Of a DNA stretch of 64,000 bases, positions 7,550 to 33,512 are shown one piece after another; the stretch's first letter is position 1; every line of letters starts with the position of its first letter. The DNA is from Limnohabitans sp. (GTDB taxonomy: Bacteria > Pseudomonadota > Gammaproteobacteria > Burkholderiales > Burkholderiaceae_C), in NCBI RefSeq assembly GCF_017848645.1, contig NZ_JAFEIF010000005.1:1-64000 (forward strand). The letters are read 5' to 3'. The notes below the pieces were generated by a model, which was given only the letters and a program-made list of their open reading frames with translations, made no database searches and was not told the DNA's origin. The translations under genes and the position numbers were made by a program.

Positions 7550-7593
7550 CTCGTTGGGTGGCTCATTCAGACGATTTTGGTGATGAGCTGCAA

Positions 7594-7669
7594 GGCGAAA
7601 GGACGGCGCGTTTCGGGCTCAGAGGCGCTTCGCTTTGCCGCATCGCCCGACCCGCGCCGCCCTCCCGCC
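7594..7669. repeat. Long imperfect palindrome with loop TCAGAGGCGCTTCGCTTTGCCGCATC
   Basis: Arms 7594-7618 and 7645-7669, about 20/25 complementary (16/19 in the inner part); 26-nt loop nearly identical to that of the 14530 element. Confidence 0.75.
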
Positions 7670-7691
7670 TTGCTCGGGTTACTGGTTCTCT

Positions 7692-8807
7692 TCAAGCGAA
7701 CACGCCCGCCGTCTCCTGCATGCGGGCTGACACTTCGCCCAATTGGTGCAAGGTGTCGCCGAATGTCATGTCCAGCTGCGTCAATTTCTTGAAGTAGTGG
7801 CTCACGATGTACTCGTCCGTGACGGCAATGCCGCCGTGCAGCTGCACCGCTTGCTGGCCGATGAAGCGCATGGACACGCCCAGCTGGTACTTGGCGCGGG
7901 CCAAGGCGCGGCGGCGCTCGTCGGCGGGCGCATGCAGCTTGAGGCTGGCGTAGTAGCTCATCGAGCGGCCCAACTCCAGCTGCATCTTCATGTCGGCCAC
8001 GCGGTGGCGCAGGGCCTGGAAGCTGGCGATGTTCACACCGAACTGCTTGCGCGTGTTCATGTAATCCACGGTGATGGCCAAAGTCTTGTCCATCACGCCC
8101 ACGGCTTCGGCGCAAGTGCACGCGATGCCGATGTCCACCGCCTCTTCCAAAGCGGCCAGGCCGTTCAGAGTGATCAGTTGGGCAGCGGCCTTGTTCAACA
8201 CCACTTCGGCGGCGCGTGAGCCGTCTTGTGTGCCGTACGCCTGAGTGCTCACGCCGCTGGCGCTGCGCTCGACCAAAAACAGGGCGATTTGACCGTTGAC
8301 GGTGGCGGGCACCACAAAAGCGTCGGCTTGGTCGCCAATGGCCACCACGCTCTTGGTGCCGGTCACGGTCCAAGCGCCGCCAGACTCGCTGGCCTGGGCG
8401 GCGCAACGGTTCAGCTGGTAACGTGCCCCGCGCTCCTGCTGCGCCAGCACGACGATGGCTTCGCCTGCCGCCATGCGCGTCAACCAAGCGGCTTGCAGGG
8501 CTGCAGGGGCGTGGGTTTGCAGCGTGGCGCTGCAGATCAGGGTTTGGGTGAGGGGTTCGAGCACGATGCCGCGCCCGAGTTCTTCCATGGTGACCATGGC
8601 TTCGGTCGGGCCCATGCCCATGCCGCCGTGCTCTTCGCTCACGTACAGGCCCGTCAGGCCCAGTTCGGCCATTTCGCCGTAAGCGGCACGGTCAAAGCCC
8701 CCGGCTGCGACGATGGTGCGGCGGCGGTCAAAGTCATAGCCCTTGTCCACCCATTTGCGCACCGCGTCGCGCAGTTGTTCTTGGTCGTCAGAAAAATCGA
8801 AATCCAT
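7692..8807 (-). CDS. Acyl-CoA dehydrogenase (small-subunit, PimD-like)
   Basis: MDFDFSDDQEQLRDAVRKWV...GLYVSEEHGGMGMG...RKQFGVNIASFQALRHRVADM...LHGGIAVTDEYIVSHYFKKLT. Confidence 0.92.
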   Translation of the reverse strand: MDFDFSDDQEQLRDAVRKWVDKGYDFDRRRTIVAAGGFDRAAYGEMAELGLTGLYVSEEHGGMGMGPTEAMVTMEELGRGIVLEPLTQTLICSATLQTHAPAALQAAWLTRMAAGEAIVVLAQQERGARYQLNRCAAQASESGGAWTVTGTKSVVAIGDQADAFVVPATVNGQIALFLVERSASGVSTQAYGTQDGSRAAEVVLNKAAAQLITLNGLAALEEAVDIGIACTCAEAVGVMDKTLAITVDYMNTRKQFGVNIASFQALRHRVADMKMQLELGRSMSYYASLKLHAPADERRRALARAKYQLGVSMRFIGQQAVQLHGGIAVTDEYIVSHYFKKLTQLDMTFGDTLHQLGEVSARMQETAGVFA

Positions 8808-8817
8808 GTGTGTCTCC

Positions 8818-9999
8818 TTAACCCAGAACTGTCTGGGCGACGATGTTGCGTTGCACTTCGTTGCTGCCGCCGTAAATGGTGGTCTTGCGCATGTTGAAGT
8901 AGTTGGCGGCCAGTGGCGCGTTGGCCACCACACCGCCGGGGAAGTTGCCTTGCCAACCCGCGTCCATGGCTTCGAAGATGAAGGGCAGGGCGAAGGGGCC
9001 TGCGGCCTGCATCATCAGCTCGGTGTAGCGCTGCTGAATTTCGCTGCCCTTGATCTTCAGGAGACCGGCAATGTCGAGCGAGTTCTTGCCCGACTTTTCG
9101 GCGGACAGGACGCGCAGCACCAGCATTTCGAGTGCCACGATGTCGACTTCGAGCTTGGCGATTTCGTCGCGGAAGCGCATGTCGTCGTACACGCCTTCGG
9201 CTTTGGCGATGCGCTTGAGGCGCTCGAGCTCGCGCTTGGCGCGGTTCACGTCGGCGATGTTGGTACGCTCGTGGGCCAGCAGGTGCTTGGCGTAGTTCCA
9301 GCCCTTGTTTTCCTCGCCCACCAGGTTCTCTGCGGGCACTTCGACGTTGTCAAACCAGACTTCGTTGACTTCGCACTCGCCGTCCAGCAGTTTGATGGGG
9401 CGCACGGTGATGCCGGGCGATTTCATGTCGATCAAGAGGAAGGAGATGCCGGTTTGGGGTTTGCCTTCGGTGCTGGTGCGCACCAGGCAAAAAATCCACT
9501 CGCCGTATTGGCCCAGCGTGGTCCAGGTTTTCTGGCCGTTGACGATGTATTTGTCGCCCACGCGCTCGGCGCGGGTCTTCAGCGACGCCAGGTCAGAGCC
9601 GGAGCCCGGCTCGCTGTAGCCCTGGCTCCACCAGACTTCGCCGCTGGCGATGCCGGGCAAAAAGCGCTGTTGCTGCTCGGCGTTGCCAAAAGCCATGATC
9701 ACCGGGGCCACCATCACGGGGCCAAAAGGCACGACGCGGGGGGCACCGGCCAGGGCGCATTCTTCTTCAAACAAATGCTTTTGCACGGCGGTCCAGCCCG
9801 GGCCGCCAAACTGCGTGGGCCAGCCATGGCCCAGCCAGCCTTTTTTGCCCAAAATCTTGGCCCAGCGCTGCATGTCCTCGCGGGTCAGACGCATGGCGTT
9901 GTGCACTTTTTGTGAAATGTCAGCGGGCAAGTTTGCCTTGACCCAGGTGCGGATCTCGTCGCGGAACGCGAGCTCTTCGGGGGTGAATGCCAAATCCAT
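8818..9999 (-). CDS. Acyl-CoA dehydrogenase (large-subunit, PimC-like)
   Basis: MDLAFTPEELAFRDEIRTWVKANLP...WSQGYSEPGSGSDLASLKTRAE...GQKTWTTLGQYGEWIFCLVRT. Confidence 0.92.
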   Translation of the reverse strand: MDLAFTPEELAFRDEIRTWVKANLPADISQKVHNAMRLTREDMQRWAKILGKKGWLGHGWPTQFGGPGWTAVQKHLFEEECALAGAPRVVPFGPVMVAPVIMAFGNAEQQQRFLPGIASGEVWWSQGYSEPGSGSDLASLKTRAERVGDKYIVNGQKTWTTLGQYGEWIFCLVRTSTEGKPQTGISFLLIDMKSPGITVRPIKLLDGECEVNEVWFDNVEVPAENLVGEENKGWNYAKHLLAHERTNIADVNRAKRELERLKRIAKAEGVYDDMRFRDEIAKLEVDIVALEMLVLRVLSAEKSGKNSLDIAGLLKIKGSEIQQRYTELMMQAAGPFALPFIFEAMDAGWQGNFPGGVVANAPLAANYFNMRKTTIYGGSNEVQRNIVAQTVLG

Positions 10000-10152
10000 G
10001 GGGGAATCTCTCCGTTGGGGGTGGGTGTTTTTGAGTGCAGTTCAAGCAAAATCAAACGACCGTGCTTTTTATCATGCGCAGGTCGATTCGGCTTGTCCTT
10101 GGGGCGACAAAAGCCAAGAGACTTTCAGTGAGCAGGGATAATCCGGCCCTTC

Positions 10153-10755
10153 ATGAGAAACATCGTCATTCTGATTTCGGGCTCGGGCTCCAACATGGCC
10201 GCCATCGTGCGTGCGGCAGAGCAGGGCCGCTGGAGCCAACGCCTGAACGCCCGGGTGGCCGCCGTGCTGAGCAACCGGGCCGATGCCCAAGGCCTGGCCT
10301 TTGCCCAAGACCACGGCATTGCCACCGCCGTGCTGGACCACAAGGCCTTTGCCAGCCGCCAAGACTTTGATGCCGCTTTGATGGCCGAAATCGACCGGCA
10401 CGCCCCCGCGCTGGTGGTGTTGGCGGGCTTCATGCGCATCCTGACCCCCGGGTTTGTGGCGCACTATGCCGGGCGCTTGCTCAACATCCATCCGTCTTTG
10501 TTGCCCGCTTTCCCGGGGCTGAACACGCACCAGCGGGCGATCGATGCCGGATGCCGCTTTGCCGGGGCCACGGTGCACCAGGTCACGGCCGAGCTCGACC
10601 ATGGCGCCATCCTGGCGCAGGCGGTGGTGCCAGTTTTGGCCGATGACACGGCCGACACCTTGGCGGCACGTGTGCTCAGCCAAGAGCACTTGATCTACCC
10701 GCAGGCGGTCGCTGAGTTTTTGGCTCAATCTCCAATGCGTTCAAAGCGTGGTTGA
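10153..10755 (+). CDS. purN: Phosphoribosylglycinamide formyltransferase
   Basis: ISGSGSNMAAIV, LVVLAGFMRILTPGFV, LNIHPSLLPAFPGLNTHQRAIDAGCRFAGATVHQV. Confidence 0.97.
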   Translation: MRNIVILISGSGSNMAAIVRAAEQGRWSQRLNARVAAVLSNRADAQGLAFAQDHGIATAVLDHKAFASRQDFDAALMAEIDRHAPALVVLAGFMRILTPGFVAHYAGRLLNIHPSLLPAFPGLNTHQRAIDAGCRFAGATVHQVTAELDHGAILAQAVVPVLADDTADTLAARVLSQEHLIYPQAVAEFLAQSPMRSKRG

Positions 10756-10961
10756 ACTTTTCCATTGAATTCGGCCACTTCGGCAAACATGGCGGCAGGC
10801 CGCACCCACAGGCCTTGCTCGCCATAAAGCGCCTGGTACAGCGTCATGTGTTGCAGGTCTTCGCTGTGGCGCACGGTGCCCAGCACGCGGTATTGGCCAC
10901 CTTTGTAATGGCGGTACAGGCCTTTGGGCGTTTCGATCATCGGTGGCAGTGGTTCTGACAT
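10725..10961 (-). CDS. DUF1653 domain protein
   Basis: KGLYRHYKGGQYRVLGTVRHSEDLQHMTLYQALYGEQGLWVRPAAMFAEV is the DUF1653 pattern; its 3' end overlaps purN by about 31 bp. Confidence 0.85.
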   Translation of the reverse strand: MSEPLPPMIETPKGLYRHYKGGQYRVLGTVRHSEDLQHMTLYQALYGEQGLWVRPAAMFAEVAEFNGKVQPRFERIGD

Positions 10962-11016
10962 GTCTTTCCTGTGATGTGTGTCTGACAAAGGGACGGGGAT
11001 GGGACAATGCAGCCCT

Positions 11017-12315
11017 ATGCATCCAAAAGCCCTTTTAGACGCCTGCGCCGATTTGGTCAGGCTGGTCCTCCAATTTGAACATCCTGCCGACGCTGTCGTG
11101 TCGCGCTATTTCCGCGAACACCGCTCTTTGGGCCCCCGTGAACGCGCCACCCTGGCCGAAACCGCTTTTGCGGTGCTGCGCAAAAAGCTGCTCTTTGAAC
11201 AACTGGCCCGCTCCGGCTCGGGTGCCAAAGAGCGCAAGCTGGCGATTTTGGGCTTTTTTGGCCCGCGCGATTTTTTGGCCTCGGCCCTGAACGACACCGA
11301 AAAAAAATGGCTCGCGACCTGCGACGCCATTCCGGGCGACGCCCTGATGGCCCCGCACCGCCACAACCTGCCCGATTGGATGGCGCAAGCCCTGCAAGCC
11401 CAATTGGGCGAGGATTTCTGGGACTTGGCCGAGCATTTGCAGCAGCCCGGCACCTTGGACCTGCGCGTGAACATGCTCAACGCCAAGCGCAGCGACATCC
11501 AAAAAGAGCTCGCGCAAGCGGGCATCGCCTCCGAGCCCACACCCTATTCGCCTTGGGGTTTGCGCTTGCAAGGCAAACCCGCCTTGCAAAAGACCGACGC
11601 CTTCATCCGGGGTGCGATCGAGGTGCAAGACGAAGGCTCGCAGCTGCTGGCCTTGCTGGTGGACGCTCACCGGGGCGAGATGGTGGTGGACTTTTGCGCA
11701 GGTGCGGGCGGCAAAACGCTGGCGCTGGGCGCGGCCATGCGCAGCACGGGCCGTTTGTACGCGTTTGACGTGTCGGGCCACCGCCTCGATGCCCTCAAAC
11801 CCCGCATGGCCCGCAGCGGCTTGTCGAATGTGCACCCGGCGGCCATTGCGCACGAGCGCGACGAGCGCGTGAAACGCCTGTCGGGCAAGATCGACCGCGT
11901 ATTGGTCGATGCGCCGTGCTCGGGCTTGGGCACCTTGCGCCGCAACCCTGACTTGAAATGGCGACAAAAGCCCCAAGCTGTGCAAGAGTTGACCGAAAAG
12001 CAGCAAGCCATCCTGCAAAGCGCCTCGCGCATGGTCAAGTCGGGCGGCCGTTTGGTGTATGCCACCTGCAGCGTGTTGCCCGAGGAAAACGAGCTGATCG
12101 CGCAAGCCTTCAGCGCCGCCAACCCGGATTTTGTCCCCTTGAACGTGGCGCAAGAGCTCGACAGGCTCAAAGTGCCCCACGCAGCCAGCCTGTGCTCACT
12201 TGCCCCATCGGGCGATGTCCACCCCGATGCCCCGCCAGCCGGCACATTCCTGAGGCTGTGGCCCCATCGCCATGCCACGGATGGGTTTTTTGCCGCAGCT
12301 TGGGTTAAAAAGTAA
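11017..12315 (+). CDS. RsmB/NOP-family RNA (cytosine-5) methyltransferase
   Basis: DEGSQLLALL, VDFCAGAGGKTLAL, VLVDAPCSGLGTLRRNPDLKWR, LVYATCSVLPEENE. Confidence 0.94.
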   Translation: MHPKALLDACADLVRLVLQFEHPADAVVSRYFREHRSLGPRERATLAETAFAVLRKKLLFEQLARSGSGAKERKLAILGFFGPRDFLASALNDTEKKWLATCDAIPGDALMAPHRHNLPDWMAQALQAQLGEDFWDLAEHLQQPGTLDLRVNMLNAKRSDIQKELAQAGIASEPTPYSPWGLRLQGKPALQKTDAFIRGAIEVQDEGSQLLALLVDAHRGEMVVDFCAGAGGKTLALGAAMRSTGRLYAFDVSGHRLDALKPRMARSGLSNVHPAAIAHERDERVKRLSGKIDRVLVDAPCSGLGTLRRNPDLKWRQKPQAVQELTEKQQAILQSASRMVKSGGRLVYATCSVLPEENELIAQAFSAANPDFVPLNVAQELDRLKVPHAASLCSLAPSGDVHPDAPPAGTFLRLWPHRHATDGFFAAAWVKK

Positions 12316-12427
12316 TACTTTGAAGCCCCTATCGGCCGAAGTCGGTCGAAATCGCTGTCCTTTTTGGGGCAGCAAACTTAAAATCGTCGTATTGCCTGGT
12401 TTCAGGCGCCAGTAGAAAGACAGACTC

Positions 12428-13639
12428 ATGTTGTTGCCTGATTGGGCTTTTTTGGATGCAGTGGTTCACTGGATGGGCAACGGCCTGTTCGACTTGGCTT
12501 GGTGGCAAATGGTGTTGATCACCTTGGCCCTGACCCACATCACCATCGCCAGCGTCACCATTTTCCTGCACCGTCACCAGGCGCACCGCGCCTTGGACCT
12601 GCACGCTATTCCCTCGCACTTTTTCCGTTTCTGGCTGTGGCTGACCACGGGCCAGGTGACCAAGGAGTGGGCGGCCATCCACCGCAAGCACCACGCCAAG
12701 TGCGAGCAAGCTGAAGACCCGCACAGCCCCCATGTGCACGGCATCAAAACCGTGTTGTTCACGGGCGCTGAGCTGTACCGCAAGGAATCGAAGAACCTGG
12801 ACACTATCAAGCGGTTTGGCCACGGCACACCCGACGACTGGATCGAGCGCAACCTGTACACCCGCTTTTCCTGGCAAGGCGTGGCCCTGATGCTGATCAT
12901 CGATGTGGCCCTGTTTGGCTTTTTGGGCCTGACGGTCTGGGCTGTGCAAATGGCCTGGATCCCGATCACGGCGGCCGGCATCATCAACGGTGCGGCCCAC
13001 TACTGGGGTTACCGCAACTTTGAGGCGCACGACGCCAGCACCAACATCTCGCCTTGGGGCATCCTGATCGGTGGCGAAGAGTTGCACAACAACCACCACA
13101 CTTACCCCACCTCGGCCAAGCTGTCGGTCAAGCCTTACGAGTTCGACATCGGCTGGTTGTACATCCGCGTGCTCGAAACCTTGGGCATGGCCACCGTCAA
13201 AAAGACACCGCCTCGTCTGGCTTACGGCGACATCCGCCCTGTGGCCGACGAAAAGACCCTGGAAGCCCTGATTGCCAACCGTTACGAAGTGATGGCGGGC
13301 TATGCCCGCAATGTGCGCACCGTGATGCAACAAGAAGCCGGCAAGCTCAAGCTGGACGCCAGTGTGATGCAGGCGGCCCAGCGTTGGTTGCACCGCGATG
13401 CCGCCAAGGTGCCCGCTGCGGCTCAGGCCCATCTCCAGCAAGCCCGCGCTGCGAGTCCCGTGCTCGACAAGATGGTGCAAATGCGCGAAGAGCTGAGCCA
13501 GATTTGGCTGAACACCTCGCATTCCCGCGAGCAATTGGCCGCCGACCTCCAGGCTTGGTGCCGTCGGGCCGAAGAAAGTGGCATCTCTGCACTGCGTGAC
13601 TTCTCGGTCAAGTTGCGTGCGGTTCGTCAAACGGCCTGA
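12428..13639 (+). CDS. Acyl-CoA / fatty acid desaturase
   Basis: Histidine boxes HRHQAHR, HRKHH and HNNHHTYPTSAK with transmembrane segments. Confidence 0.95.
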   Translation: MLLPDWAFLDAVVHWMGNGLFDLAWWQMVLITLALTHITIASVTIFLHRHQAHRALDLHAIPSHFFRFWLWLTTGQVTKEWAAIHRKHHAKCEQAEDPHSPHVHGIKTVLFTGAELYRKESKNLDTIKRFGHGTPDDWIERNLYTRFSWQGVALMLIIDVALFGFLGLTVWAVQMAWIPITAAGIINGAAHYWGYRNFEAHDASTNISPWGILIGGEELHNNHHTYPTSAKLSVKPYEFDIGWLYIRVLETLGMATVKKTPPRLAYGDIRPVADEKTLEALIANRYEVMAGYARNVRTVMQQEAGKLKLDASVMQAAQRWLHRDAAKVPAAAQAHLQQARAASPVLDKMVQMREELSQIWLNTSHSREQLAADLQAWCRRAEESGISALRDFSVKLRAVRQTA

Positions 13640-13658
13640 TCTGTATCCGAGAACATCC

Positions 13659-13682
13659 AAACAGGGCCTTCGGGCCCTGTTT
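13659..13682. terminator. Intrinsic terminator
   Basis: AAACAGGGCC-TTCG-GGCCCTGTTT. Confidence 0.85.
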
Positions 13683-13803
13683 GCTTTGCGGCATTCGGTT
13701 TGCTGATGTTGGACAAATAGGTTGGCCAAGTGATGATCCCGTGAAGGTTCGGGTGCATCCTTGGAGAAACCGCTTGGCTCGCAACATGCTCAGTGTTGGG
13801 ACG

Positions 13804-13832
13804 TAAAAAAACCCGCCAGAGGCGGGTTTTTT
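13804..13832. terminator. Bidirectional-looking intrinsic terminator (serves rpmBG on minus strand)
   Basis: AAAAAAACCCGCC-AGA-GGCGGGTTTTTTG. Confidence 0.85.
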
Positions 13833-13852
13833 GTTGCAAGGCTCAGGCCGAA

Positions 13853-14023
13853 TCACTTCAGCTTGATTTCCTTGTATTCAACGTGCTTGCGAGCTTTGGG
13901 GTCGAACTTCATGATCGACATTTTCTCGGGCATGGTTTTCTTGTTTTTGCTGGTCGTGTAGAAGTGACCAGTGCCAGCTGTGGATTCCAGCTTGATTTTT
14001 TCGCGTCCGCCTTTGGTTGCCAT
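13853..14023 (-). CDS. rpmG: 50S ribosomal protein L33
   Basis: Manual translation [56 protein letters not shown]; below the ORF-track length cut-off. Confidence 0.97.
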
Positions 14024-14049
14024 GGTAGATGACTCCTAATGTTCTGGGT

Positions 14050-14283
14050 TTAGGCTTGACCGCGTGCACGCAGGTCTGCGAGCACGGCATCGATGCCGTT
14101 TTTGTCGATCAGGCGCAGAGCAGCGCTGGAGACGCGCAGGCGCACCCAACGGTTTTCTGTTTCAACCCAGAAACGACGGTATTGCAGGTTCGGCAGGAAC
14201 CGGCGCTTGGTTTTGTTGTTGGCGTGGGAAACGTTGTTCCCGGTCATTGGGCCTTTGCCCGTTACGTCGCAAACGCGTGCCAT
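14050..14283 (-). CDS. rpmB: 50S ribosomal protein L28
   Basis: [52 protein letters not shown]. Confidence 0.98.
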
Positions 14284-14529
14284 GTGGACACTCCGATACT
14301 TTTTAAACAGCTGGTGCCGATGGGTCTCGTGCAGATTTGCACGGGGCCTGGCGCTCCAGCCTCACCTCGCCAAGATGGGTGGCGGTATCCCAGATCGCTG
14401 GCTCCGTGATCCCGAATGAAAACCCGGGCAGTTCCAGCAAAGCCTTGAATTATAGCCAGAAAGCGCGGGCTTGAACCCTTGGGTTGGTCTTTTGTGACCA
14501 AGGCTGGGTAATTTTGGCCTTGGTGGGGG

Positions 14530-14605
14530 AGGCGTTACGGGTGCCTGCCGGGGTTCAGAGGCGCTTCGCTTTGCCACATCACCCCGGCAGCCACCCGCAA
14601 CGCCT
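14530..14605. repeat. Long near-perfect palindrome with loop TCAGAGGCGCTTCGCTTTGCCACATC
   Basis: Arms AGGCGTTACGGGTGCCTGCCGGGGT (14530-14554) and ACCCCGGCAGCCACCCGCAACGCCT (14581-14605), 23/25 complementary; 26-nt loop. Confidence 0.85.
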
Positions 14606-14664
14606 TTGTCGAGGTTCGTTGTCGCAGTGCCTGCAACTTGAACGTCGACTCTGGCGTTTCGTCT

Positions 14665-15639
<975 letters not shown>

Positions 15640-30488: not shown

Positions 30489-33400
30489 TCAGCCCAGGCG
30501 TTGCAGTTGCTGGCGAATTTTATCGAGCGTGGCACCGAAATCGGCCACGCGCTTTCTGGTCTCGTCGAGCACGGCTTGCGGGGCTTTGGCCACAAAGGCT
30601 TCGTTGCCAAGCTTGGCGTTGGCCTTGGTTATTTCGCCTTCGAGGCGGGCAACTTCCTTGCTCAGACGGATTTTTTCAGCGGCCGCATCCACTTCGATGA
30701 AAAGGCACAGTCGCGCTTCGCCCACTACGGCCACAGGGGCCGATTGTGCGGCGGCTATCCATTCGGCTTCGGTGTCAAACACCTTCACTTCGCTCAGCTT
30801 GGCCAGCGACTGCAGCACGGGGGCTACGCTTTGCATGAAAGTGGTGTCACCCAGCACATACAGGGGCATGCGGGTCGAGGGGGAGACGTTCATTTCGCCC
30901 CGCAGGTTGCGGCAGGCGTCGACCAGGGTTTTGAGCTTGGCCACATGGGCTTCGGCTGCTTCGTCGATGCGCTCAGGCTGGCTCACGGGGTAGGCCGCAA
31001 TGCTGACCGACTCGCCCGGGCGGCCCGCCACCACCGACACTTTTTGCCAGAGTTCTTCGGTGATGAAGGGGATGATGGGGTGCGCCAAGCGCATGATGGT
31101 TTCGAGTGTGCGGATCAGGGTGCGGCGGGTGGCGCGTTGTTGCGCGTCGTTACCGGTGTTGATTTGCACCTTGGCGATTTCGAGGTACCAGTCGCAGAAC
31201 TCGTTCCAGACAAAGTCATAAATCGTGTTGGCCACGTTGTCCAGGCGGTACTCGGCAAAGCCTTTGGCCACATCGGCTTCGACGCGCTGCAGCTGCGAGC
31301 TGATCCAGCGGTCGGCCTGGCTGAAGGCCAAGTAGCCGTGGGCCGGGCCGCCCACTTCGCACTCGGCTTTGGTGTGCTCTTTCAGGCCGCAGTCCTGGCC
31401 TTCGCAGTTCATCAGCACAAAGCGGGTGGCGTTCCACAGCTTGTTGCAGAAGTTACGGTAACCCTCGCAGCGCTTGGAGTCAAAGTTGATGCTGCGGCCC
31501 AGTGACGCGAGCGCCGCGAATGTGAAGCGCAGGGCGTCGGCACCGTAGGCAGGGATGCCGTCTGGGAATTCTTTTTCGGTTTGCTTGCGGACCTTGGGGG
31601 CGGTCTCGGGCTTGCGCAGGCCTTGGGTGCGTTTTTCCAGCAGGGGTTCGAGCGTGATGCCGTCGATCAGGTCAACCGGGTCGAGCACATTGCCCTCGGA
31701 CTTGCTCATCTTCTTGCCTTGGGCATCGAGCACCAGGCCGTGGATGTAGACGTGTTTGAAGGGCACTTTGCCGGTGAAGTGCGTGGTCATCATGATCATC
31801 CGGGCGACCCAGAAGAAGATGATGTCGTAGCCGGTCACCAGCACGCTGCTGGGGAGATAGAGGTCGTAATCGCTTTGGCTGTTGTTGGTGTTGCTATGAG
31901 TTGTGGCGTTGGTTCCGCTGGCGAGCGTGCCGGAACCGGTCTTGCTCATACTCGCTTCGCTCGCAAAGTCGCTGCGCCCGGTCCCGGCACGCTCGCCAGC
32001 TGCGGCGTTGGGCCAGCCCATTGTTGAGAAGGGCACCAAGGCGCTCGAGTACCAAGTGTCCAGCACGTCTTCGTCACGCTTGAGCGTCTTGCCCGGCGCT
32101 TTGGCTTGCGCTTCGGCCTCGTTGCGGGCCACGTATACCTTGCCGTCTTCGTCGTACCAAGCGGGAATCTGGTGGCCCCACCACAGCTGGCGCGAGATGC
32201 ACCAGTCCTGGATGTTGTTCATCCACTGGTTGTAGGTGTTGACCCAGTTTTCGGGCACAAAGCTCACGGCGCCGGACTGCACCGCGTCGATGGCTTTTTG
32301 GGCAATGCTCTTGCCTGTGGCATCGCCTTGGCCCACTTGGTTCATGGCCACGAACCACTGGTCAGTCAGCATGGGCTCGATCACTTGGCCGGTGCGGGCG
32401 CAGCGCGGCACCATGAGTTTGTGTTTCTTCACTTCGACCAAAGCGCCTGCGGCTTCGAGGTCGGCCACCACGGCCTTGCGGGCCACGAAGCGGTCCAGGC
32501 CCCGGTATTTTTCAGGCGCGTTCGCGTTGATCGTCGCGTCCAGGTTCAGCACGCAGATCATCTCCAGCTTGTGGCGCTGGCCGACTTGGTAGTCGTTGGT
32601 GTCGTGGGCGGGTGTGACCTTGACCACGCCCGTGCCAAAGTCCTTGTCCACATAGTCGTCGGCAATCACGGGGATGGTGCGGCCACACAGGGGCAGGTTG
32701 ACTTGTTGGCCAATGAGGTGTTTGTAACGCTGGTCTTCTGGGTGCACCATCACCGCCACGTCGCCCAGCAGGGTTTCCGGGCGGGTGGTGGCGACCGTCA
32801 AGCTGCCTGAGCCGTCGGCCAAGTCATAGCGGATGTGCCACATCGAGCCTTCTTCTTCCTCGCTCTCAACTTCGAGGTCAGACACGGCGCTCATCAGCAC
32901 CGGGTCCCAGTTCACCAGACGTTTGCCACGGTAGATCAGGCCTTGCTCGTACAACTGCACAAAGGTTTCGGTCACGGTTTTGGACAGCTTGGGGTCCATC
33001 GTGAAGTATTCGCGGCTCCAGTCCACGCTGTCGCCCATTCGGCGCATCTGGCTGGTGATGGTGCTGCCCGATTCTTCTTTCCACTCCCACACCTTGCTCA
33101 CAAAGTTCTTGCGCGCTTCTGCGGGTGTGGGGCCCATGTCGTGGCGGCTGATGCCTTTGGCCTGCAGCTGGCGCTCCACCACGATCTGGGTGGCGATGCC
33201 CGCATGGTCCGTGCCCGGAATCCAGGCCGTGTTGTGACCCAGCATGCGGTGGTAGCGCGTCAACGAGTCCATGATGGTCTGGTTGAAGGCGTGGCCCATG
33301 TGCAATGTGCCGGTCACGTTGGGCGGTGGCAATTGGATGGCAAACGCTGGAGCGCCTTCCTTGGGCGCTTGGGTGCCCCGGAAACCGGCGACACCGTAAC

Positions 33401-33512
33401 CGCGTTTCTCCCACTCGGGTCCCCAATGGGCTTCCAGCGCGGCGGGTTCAAACGATTTGGACAGGCTCTCAAGGCCGGGCTGATGGGCCACAGTGGCGGG
33501 TGCGTTGCTCAT
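30489..33512 (-). CDS. valS: Valyl-tRNA synthetase with about 40-aa in-frame insertion
   Basis: [38 protein letters not shown]; insertion between GWPN and [22 protein letters not shown]. Confidence 0.97.
31917..32000. repeat. Palindromic element inside valS coding sequence
   Basis: Arms GCTGGCGAGCGTGCCGGAACCGG (31917-31939) and CCGGTCCCGGCACGCTCGCCAGC (31978-32000), 22/23 complementary; 38-nt centre contains CTCGCTTCGCTCGC. Confidence 0.9.

Follow-up and report, generated by a model that had tools for sequence, protein, structure and literature searches.

A family of chromosomal palindromic elements in Limnohabitans with a constant loop and covarying, locus-specific stems

The 64-kb window, by which we mean the whole stretch of Limnohabitans DNA analyzed here, contains four copies of a hairpin element, all on the minus strand. 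Three are intergenic. The first (positions 327 to 407) carries the variant loop GATTTCCTGGCGCGAAGCGACTGATGA, read on the folded strand, and lies 3' of the signal peptidase II gene (ORF 438-953, minus). The second (7592 to 7671) carries loop A with one change (GATGCGGCAAAGCGAAGCGCCTCTGA) and lies 3' of an acyl-CoA dehydrogenase gene (ORF 7692-8933, minus), and the third (14528 to 14607) carries loop A itself (GATGTGGCAAAGCGAAGCGCCTCTGA) and lies 3' of a trxB-like pyridine-nucleotide disulphide oxidoreductase gene (ORF 14665-15624, minus). The fourth (31919 to 31998; loop GACTTTGCGAGCGAAGCGAGTATGA) sits in frame within valS (30489 to 33512, minus) and is translated, as a 26-residue peptide, as part of the 1,007-aa valyl-tRNA synthetase; the insert carrying the element is 44 residues long and lies between the GWP and DYDLYLP motifs of the enzyme.

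The original prediction had described three palindromes, at 328-406, 7594-7669, and 14530-14605, each of which we found at those positions, but it overlooked the copy in valS. Arms occupy 328-353/381-406 and 14530-14554/14581-14605, and the palindrome at 7594-7669 has two central mismatches. The nearly identical loops that it reported for the latter two palindromes were also confirmed (TCAGAGGCGCTTCGCTTTGCC[G/A]CATC in both, compared to TCATCAGTCGCTTCGCGCCAGGAAATC in 328-406). Palindromes with such similar loops in one window are far beyond chance. The hairpin strands folded with z scores of -7.2 to -7.8 relative to shuffled sequences, and an 80-nt covariance model recovered the four copies with E values from 1.7e-17 to 2.8e-9. 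The window copies have a GC content of 62 to 71%.

Each copy consists of a 27- to 29-bp stem and a 24- to 27-nt loop (26 nt in loop A), about 80 bases in total, built on a common one-strand plan of GAU(U)...GCGNAGC...(U)AUGA. The covariation of stem positions that the original prediction had proposed examining proved to extend to every pair: in a first set picked for good pairing, for which 127 of 146 copies qualified, double-sided changes occurred at 27 of 27 pairs, 93.9% of cells were paired, and 0 of 500 shuffles matched this result. A second, variant-based covariance model (alignment A2) was set aside because the arms were misaligned when loop length varied. Each locus has one stem family, and outer-stem identity between families is 0.368, compared to 0.32 expected by chance. 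Orthologous sites were also retrieved by their flanks, and this sample is therefore unselected by loop; here, divergence was 1.3%/4.3% in the loop, 10 to 26% in the arms, and 36 to 70% in the flanks. These comparisons show that sequence itself is strongly constrained in the loop, whereas in the stem only pairing is. Sequence-conserved stems, which would have spoken against the predicted family, were not seen among Limnohabitans paralogs, although the apical stem is conserved in other genera.

The mismatches that do occur in the stems are polar. On the folded strand, G.U outnumbered A.C mismatches 207 to 44 across all copies, 50 to 8 in 38 representatives, and 36 to 11 among variant loops. Because the mismatches are G.U on one strand, it is that strand (GAU...GCGNAGC...UGA) that is kept foldable, and these counts show that the constraint acts on one strand, with G.U tolerated and A.C not. 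What is preserved, even in the copy translated within an essential enzyme gene, is shown to be the folded shape and its tip rather than the sequence.

A search of the host and its relatives for the loop motif, as suggested in the original prediction, revealed a family much larger than the window copies, which Limnohabitans shares with related freshwater bacteria. The Limnohabitans genome from which the window derives has 18 confident copies; loop A with at most 1 mismatch occurs in 11 copies there, a reversed-pattern control gave 0, and related genomes hold 146 distinct loop A copies. The stems fall into 16 families across ~11 loci. Copies were chromosomal throughout everything searched: loop A was absent from 2.9 million viral contigs, and a plasmid search gave zero matches to the element. 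A looser pattern did produce 120 viral matches, but these lacked the stems, forming at most 14 of 20 pairs, compared to 18 to 20 in true copies. We therefore rejected a phage or plasmid origin of the family. Some elements occur as inverted pairs spaced 90 to 215 bp apart, an arrangement resembling that of BIMEs.

The placement of the three intergenic window copies just after the stop codon of a minus-strand gene did not hold for the family as a whole. By their placement, 49 copies were divergent, 33 were convergent, 24 were tandem in the sense direction, and 30 were tandem in the antisense direction, with no bias in orientation relative to genes across the family and none relative to replication strand (9 leading versus 11 lagging). 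Likewise, the common loop orientation noted in the window is not fixed, since the loop is flipped at some orthologous sites. Chimeric and flipped copies have the appearance of template-switch-like rearrangements.

Comparison of orthologous sites, another suggestion of the original prediction, revealed gain or loss of copies at single sites, with empty sites that hold neither arm. At the trxB-like locus, many same-genus genomes lack a 202-bp segment (14463 to 14664) comprising the hairpin and 60 to 70 bp on each side, such that CAGAAA is joined straight to the trxB-like stop codon. Where the element is present, orthologs share a stem family, which diverges along with its locus. A covariance-model search found no copy in five same-genus genomes. 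Given these copy-free genomes and the empty sites, individual copies are dispensable.

Structure is also maintained where the element is translated. Among copies within valS, a gene also found without the insert in other genomes, 10 of 23 pairs were double-changed, 0 of 500 shuffles reached either the number of paired cells or the covariation score, and G.U outnumbered A.C 44 to 5; because the sequences in this test are related, event counts are lower than cell counts. Other genera carry in-frame copies, their apical stem conserved, in a SpoU methylase and in MmeI-like proteins, and the 24-nt-loop subfamily of other genera (GGGCGGATGTCGGGGGC-GATTTCAAAAAGCGNAGCGTATGA) has an apical stem conserved in sequence (stem identity, 0.75).

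The original prediction had considered the element a candidate for an undescribed one. Within the window, only tRNA scored above the Rfam gathering score, and nothing did at the elements; weaker matches to miRNA and operon-leader models were at chance level and were dismissed as artifacts of hairpin shape. However, the family very probably overlaps with the published Beta-proteobacterial repeat element (BRE; Hot et al. 2011, PMC3110155), the only candidate to emerge from the literature on a constant-loop family in Comamonadaceae, a link that rests on features compared by description. BREs are 75 to 91 bp, 69% GC, chromosomal, present at 1 to 29 copies per genome, and known from Comamonadaceae; they are mostly intergenic with some copies entirely in coding sequences, their orientation is independent of the replication fork, and an 80-nt RNA (BprJ1) was detected over one copy by Northern blot (PMC3110155). 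Our elements are similar in length (~80 nt), GC content, chromosomal location, and mostly intergenic placement with some copies inside coding sequences. Unlike BREs, which are defined by >70% sequence identity and tandem arrays (VNTR) (PMC3110155), the Limnohabitans copies occur singly or as inverted pairs, with unrelated stems and nothing but the loop plan in common. Limnohabitans paralogs fall short of 70% identity, which the 24-nt-loop subfamily of other genera partly reaches.

The elements also resemble Rickettsia palindromic elements (RPEs), which are 105 to 150 bp and form sequence families with a conserved peptide (PMC2229807, PMC10969869). Both are long palindromic stem-loops without a known transposase that lie between genes and, in frame, within conserved protein genes, where the enzyme tolerates them. 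As in RPEs, in-frame copies have uninterrupted alleles elsewhere (valS with and without the insert; SpoU methylase and MmeI-like proteins). This likeness is one of shape and behavior only. For RPEs, these sources describe no fixed loop on stems that covary freely (PMC2229807, PMC10969869). The label "undescribed" is partly right. Repeat finders and Rfam would miss such a loop-only family because RPEs, BREs, and REPs are usually catalogued by stem sequence.

We consider it probable that these elements are copies of a BRE/RPE-type palindrome that are old, have been inherited vertically, and are maintained as a folded single strand with a recognized tip. Copies may have spread long ago as intact stem-loops. 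Recognition would need just a rigid helix displaying the tip, composed of the GA/GA ends and the GNA mini-hairpin, and for this reason the stems could have drifted through compensatory changes. The original prediction had offered a recognized loop with the stem kept as structure as one of two alternatives, and it is supported by the far greater conservation of loops than of arms, the 27 covarying pairs, the polar pairing, and the retention of structure within an essential ORF. The strand most likely works as RNA, and a putative trans-acting factor may bind or process the hairpin upon read-through of either flanking transcript. An RNA role in one particular transcript sits uneasily with the free and sometimes flipping orientation. 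We speculate, tentatively, that dispersed RNA hairpins with an invariant tip are bound by one dedicated putative factor to form a regulon across core genes, with folded-strand selection driving compensatory stem evolution everywhere, even in essential valS, and the tip drifting between genera along with its partner.

The main alternative, a single-stranded DNA form, is possible but somewhat doubtful. Here the hairpin would be the substrate of a putative recombinase or HUH-type enzyme, with the tip as recognition site and copies mobile now or recently. In integron attC sites and IS200/IS605 ends, too, one folded strand is recognized by its shape and a few unpaired bases, and the stem may vary. 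The observed strand polarity fits DNA as well, since in DNA the more stable of the two mismatches is G.T; the GCGNAGC of the tip is a motif of unusually stable DNA mini-hairpins; and free orientation, flipped copies, and polymorphic sites are in keeping with mobility. However, our elements lack the conserved boxes, linked integrase or transposase, and lagging-strand bias of those systems, no linked enzyme was found, and at sites fixed long ago, where a defunct insertion ought to decay, the loop is still conserved.

It is unlikely that the stems stay complementary through mutation alone (quasi-palindrome template switching), without selection on structure. Long palindromes are known to self-correct, and the chimeric and flipped copies bear signs of template-switch-like rearrangement, but such a process explains neither the conservation of the loop nor the G.U-over-A.C polarity, which is seen again and again: between genes, among variant loops, and in valS. 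Less likely still is the other alternative of the original prediction, in which a mobile loop would copy the DNA flanking every new site to form an inverted repeat; it would account for a nearly identical loop within unrelated stems at every locus, but not for empty sites without either arm, stems inherited with their locus, or the conservation of apical stems from genus to genus within the 24-nt-loop subfamily. We find a terminator or 3'-untranslated region stabilizer of the upstream gene very improbable: although the first three copies noted follow stop codons, the four placement classes include a divergent one, to which the polA spacer belongs, one copy lies within valS, and ordinary terminators adjoin the element at some loci. 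Nor do the elements have the marks of an intrinsic terminator: the flank profile shows no U tract, and orientation is not linked to the upstream gene. Least probable of all, and rejected, is an ordinary REP element mobilized by a resident RAYT (Y1 transposase), for although REP/BIMEs are also intergenic palindromes, single or in inverted pairs, with G.T pairing in stems and strand-specific hairpin recognition (PMC3733652, PMC8266576), and although all element-bearing genomes tested have a Y1 gene, so do 7 of 8 element-negative family members tested and element-free Limnohabitans, the palindrome that flanks the Limnohabitans Y1 gene is another one (TTTAATTGGG(G/A)TC(A/T)GA(T/C)CCCAATTAAA), 41 representative copies have no conserved tetranucleotide of the GTAG or CGTC type beside the stem, stems are unrelated between loci, and published REPs have 5- to 13-bp stems and mostly very short loops (PMC3733652, PMC8266576).

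The evolutionary record of this family reveals what is kept, namely, one strand, an exact tip, and a rigid helix whose sequence is free. This makes testable what recognizes such palindromic elements and the long-standing question of whether they are selfish or useful. As for their coding capacity, most copies in the Limnohabitans genome are open in 4 to 5 of 6 reading frames, and an AlphaFold model of a 200-aa ValRS fragment was uninformative (pLDDT, 44).

The three palindromes of the original prediction were present where it had placed them, and the window contained four strong matches, and no more, to a covariance model built from relatives: 327-407, 7592-7671 (downstream of an acyl-CoA dehydrogenase gene), 14528-14607 (downstream of a trxB-like gene; window neighbors were named by Pfam), and a copy that had been missed, at 31919-31998. 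RNA folding of the three predicted palindromes was strong (z of -7.2 to -7.8). The proposed loop search of the host and its relatives also turned up further copies. In the organism's own genome (3.71 Mb, 83 contigs), loop A, the 26-nt loop type of the 7592 and 14528 copies, occurred 11 times with at most one mismatch, compared to 0 matches for a reversed-pattern control, and there were 18 confident model matches in total, 7 of them with variant loops. When GTDB genomes were searched for the exact loop, at least 115 stretches matched, and those listed, nearly all from Limnohabitans or Comamonadaceae-type bins, held at least 146 distinct loop-A copies. Since copy counts include orthologs, the number of events is smaller than the number of copies.

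Among the matches listed, stem pairing extended 27 to 29 bp outward from the loop and then ended abruptly. The Watson-Crick share was 81 to 98% at most positions (weaker at positions 6 and 7), falling to 59 to 63% at positions 28 and 29 and to ∼16% at position 30. In 38 representative sequences, drawn from a set picked for good pairing (127 of the 146 listed copies qualified), 93.9% of stem cells were paired and double-sided changes occurred in 27 of 27 pairs. The covariation score was 0.96 versus 0.20 for shuffled alignments, was reached by no shuffle, and was lost once the register was slid. The stems had been predicted to be unrelated yet complementary, and this description held: the listed matches fell into 16 stem families over about 11 loci, roughly one family per locus and common to orthologs, with an identity between families of 37% over the outer 20 bp (composition expectation, 32%; out of register, 31 to 34%). 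Stems are thus unrelated across loci but inherited within a locus.

Because the genome search demanded an exact loop core, we assessed how well the loop is conserved in orthologs that had been identified through their flanks. At the 14528 site, these differed by 1.3% in the loop, 25 to 26% in the arms, and 63 to 70% in the flanks; at the 7592 site, the corresponding differences were 4.3%, 10 to 18%, and 36 to 52%. What is preserved is the sequence in the loop and the pairing in the arms; the flanks are not preserved at all. Variant loops from the same genome and from other genera share a plan of a GAU(U) start, a UGA end, and a GCGNAGC mini-hairpin (N being A, C, or T), the GA ends being partly imposed by the search used; in one loop, CCGAAGG replaces the mini-hairpin motif, and two loops lack both. 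GA also opens every one of the independently found valS loops and closes all except one. An extra loop type, GATTTCTGCGCATTTGGCAG(T/C)ATGA, without a GNA core, was seen in two different genera (L111:7559 and L154:2594).

Stem mismatches were asymmetric on the GAU...UGA strand, where G.U exceeded A.C by 207 to 44 in all listed copies, 50 to 8 in the 38 representatives, and 36 to 11 in elements with variant loops. Because a double-stranded cruciform would show no such bias, the folded form is a single strand, either RNA or DNA. We infer that RNA is the acting form. Quasi-palindrome correction could be proposed as the sole cause of stem complementarity, but alone it would not suffice, as it would yield neither the G.U polarity nor the conserved loop. 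We instead favor an ancestral palindromic element that would have spread together with its stem, the surviving Limnohabitans copies being presumably old. The element appears to have been mobile in the past and to be recognized by a trans-acting factor. The recognized part is probably the tip presented on the helix; stems would then drift by compensation, and the tip would not.

The copy at 31919-31998 is read in frame as part of a 1007-residue valyl-tRNA synthetase, to which it contributes an insert of ∼44 extra residues between GWP and DYDLYLP. At this point, two residues are present in the Thermus enzyme (1gax), and valS without the insert (GWPEKTPDYDLYLP) is found in other genomes of the genus, with a remnant in one. 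Across 30 insert-bearing orthologs, 96.3% of lower-stem cells pair (29 to 38% when slid), with double changes in 10 of 23 pairs; the paired-cell percentage and covariation score were reached by 0 of 500 shuffles and the double-changed pair count by 7 of 500. On the mRNA strand, G.U exceeded A.C by 44 to 5. Two stem versions, GGCGAGCGTGCCGG and GGCGGCAGTGGTGCCGCCGG, each pair and each preserve the reading frame. The encoded peptide changed while pairing was maintained.

None of the 136 classified loop-A placements among the matches listed lay inside a gene as called by a simple codon model (divergent, 49; convergent, 33; tandem sense, 24; tandem antisense, 30). Our inspection of the sequences placed polA, U32 peptidase, thiolase, fabI, etfA, and gapA among the neighboring genes. 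Some intergenic copies form inverted pairs 92 to 214 bp apart, and no replication-strand bias was seen (9 versus 11). Orientation was constant at most loci, with a minority flipped at four; at the 14528 site, similar stems enclose the loop in either orientation (L174/L178 and L181/L182). Comparison of orthologs of this site, as originally suggested, revealed a clean empty allele in many genomes, with CAGAAA adjoining the stop codon, and at least five filled/empty switches, by gain or loss, on the neighbor-gene tree. One genome's insert there (L193 in G187; also L118) is unlike every other allele, with a different stem and two changed loop bases. At the 7592 site, single remnant arms immediately after a stop codon (L222 and L224) represent decay of the element. 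Genomes lacking that element can have its spacer filled by another intergenic palindrome family, GTGGGAGCGAGCCCCTGCTCGCGA... (L221 and L230; also L062 and L113), and a third repeat family, GTAGGTCGG(A/T)GCTTCAGC(T/C)CCGACA, also occurs in this spacer (L215, L226, and L229).

A family-wide model search matched 15 of 151 Burkholderiaceae genomes, and a class-wide sample matched 2 of 229, both within Burkholderiaceae. Within the genus, genomes carry 6 to 21 copies, and the model found none in five complete or near-complete genomes. REP/RAYT membership is excluded by the tag, by size, and by the different palindrome flanking the resident Y1 gene. This RAYT-like transposase gene, present in nearly all Burkholderiaceae tested, element-free genomes included, is flanked by TTTAATTGGGATCTGACCCCAATTAAA-type palindromes (L414, L415, and L419; G000:C21:34800-38200 and orthologs). 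A subfamily with a 24-nt loop (GATTTCAAAAAGCGNAGCGTATGA), seen in several other genera, combines a variable outer stem with a conserved apical one, GGGCGGATGTCGGGGGC. Compared by description rather than by sequence, it fits the Beta-proteobacterial repeat element (BRE) of Bordetella, Polaromonas, Delftia, and Rhodoferax, which is chromosomal, 75 to 91 bp long, 69% GC, and mostly intergenic, with some copies wholly within coding sequence (PMC3110155). Copies of the subfamily lie in frame, in either orientation, in a SpoU methylase and in MmeI-type proteins; such in-frame palindromes in protein genes resemble Rickettsia palindromic elements, of which they are the hallmark (PMC2229807, PMC10969869). 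A TrmJ/SpoU gene (L423, genome G131) has further apparently repeat-derived in-frame peptides, HSREGGNPE and VRPELVEGL, beside its hairpin element, the former being absent in two congeners.

Elements and flanks typical of Limnohabitans are present on three contigs (CALQKH020000015.1, CALQKH020000003.1, and CALQKH020000010.1; L017, L040, and L046) from a record under the title Akkermansia muciniphila, and this bin therefore looks mislabeled. L040 and L046, together with L057 and L085, contain loop-A copies in which each of the mismatched arms derives from a different element, a pattern that fits palindrome-mediated deletion or recombination or, possibly, MAG assembly error.
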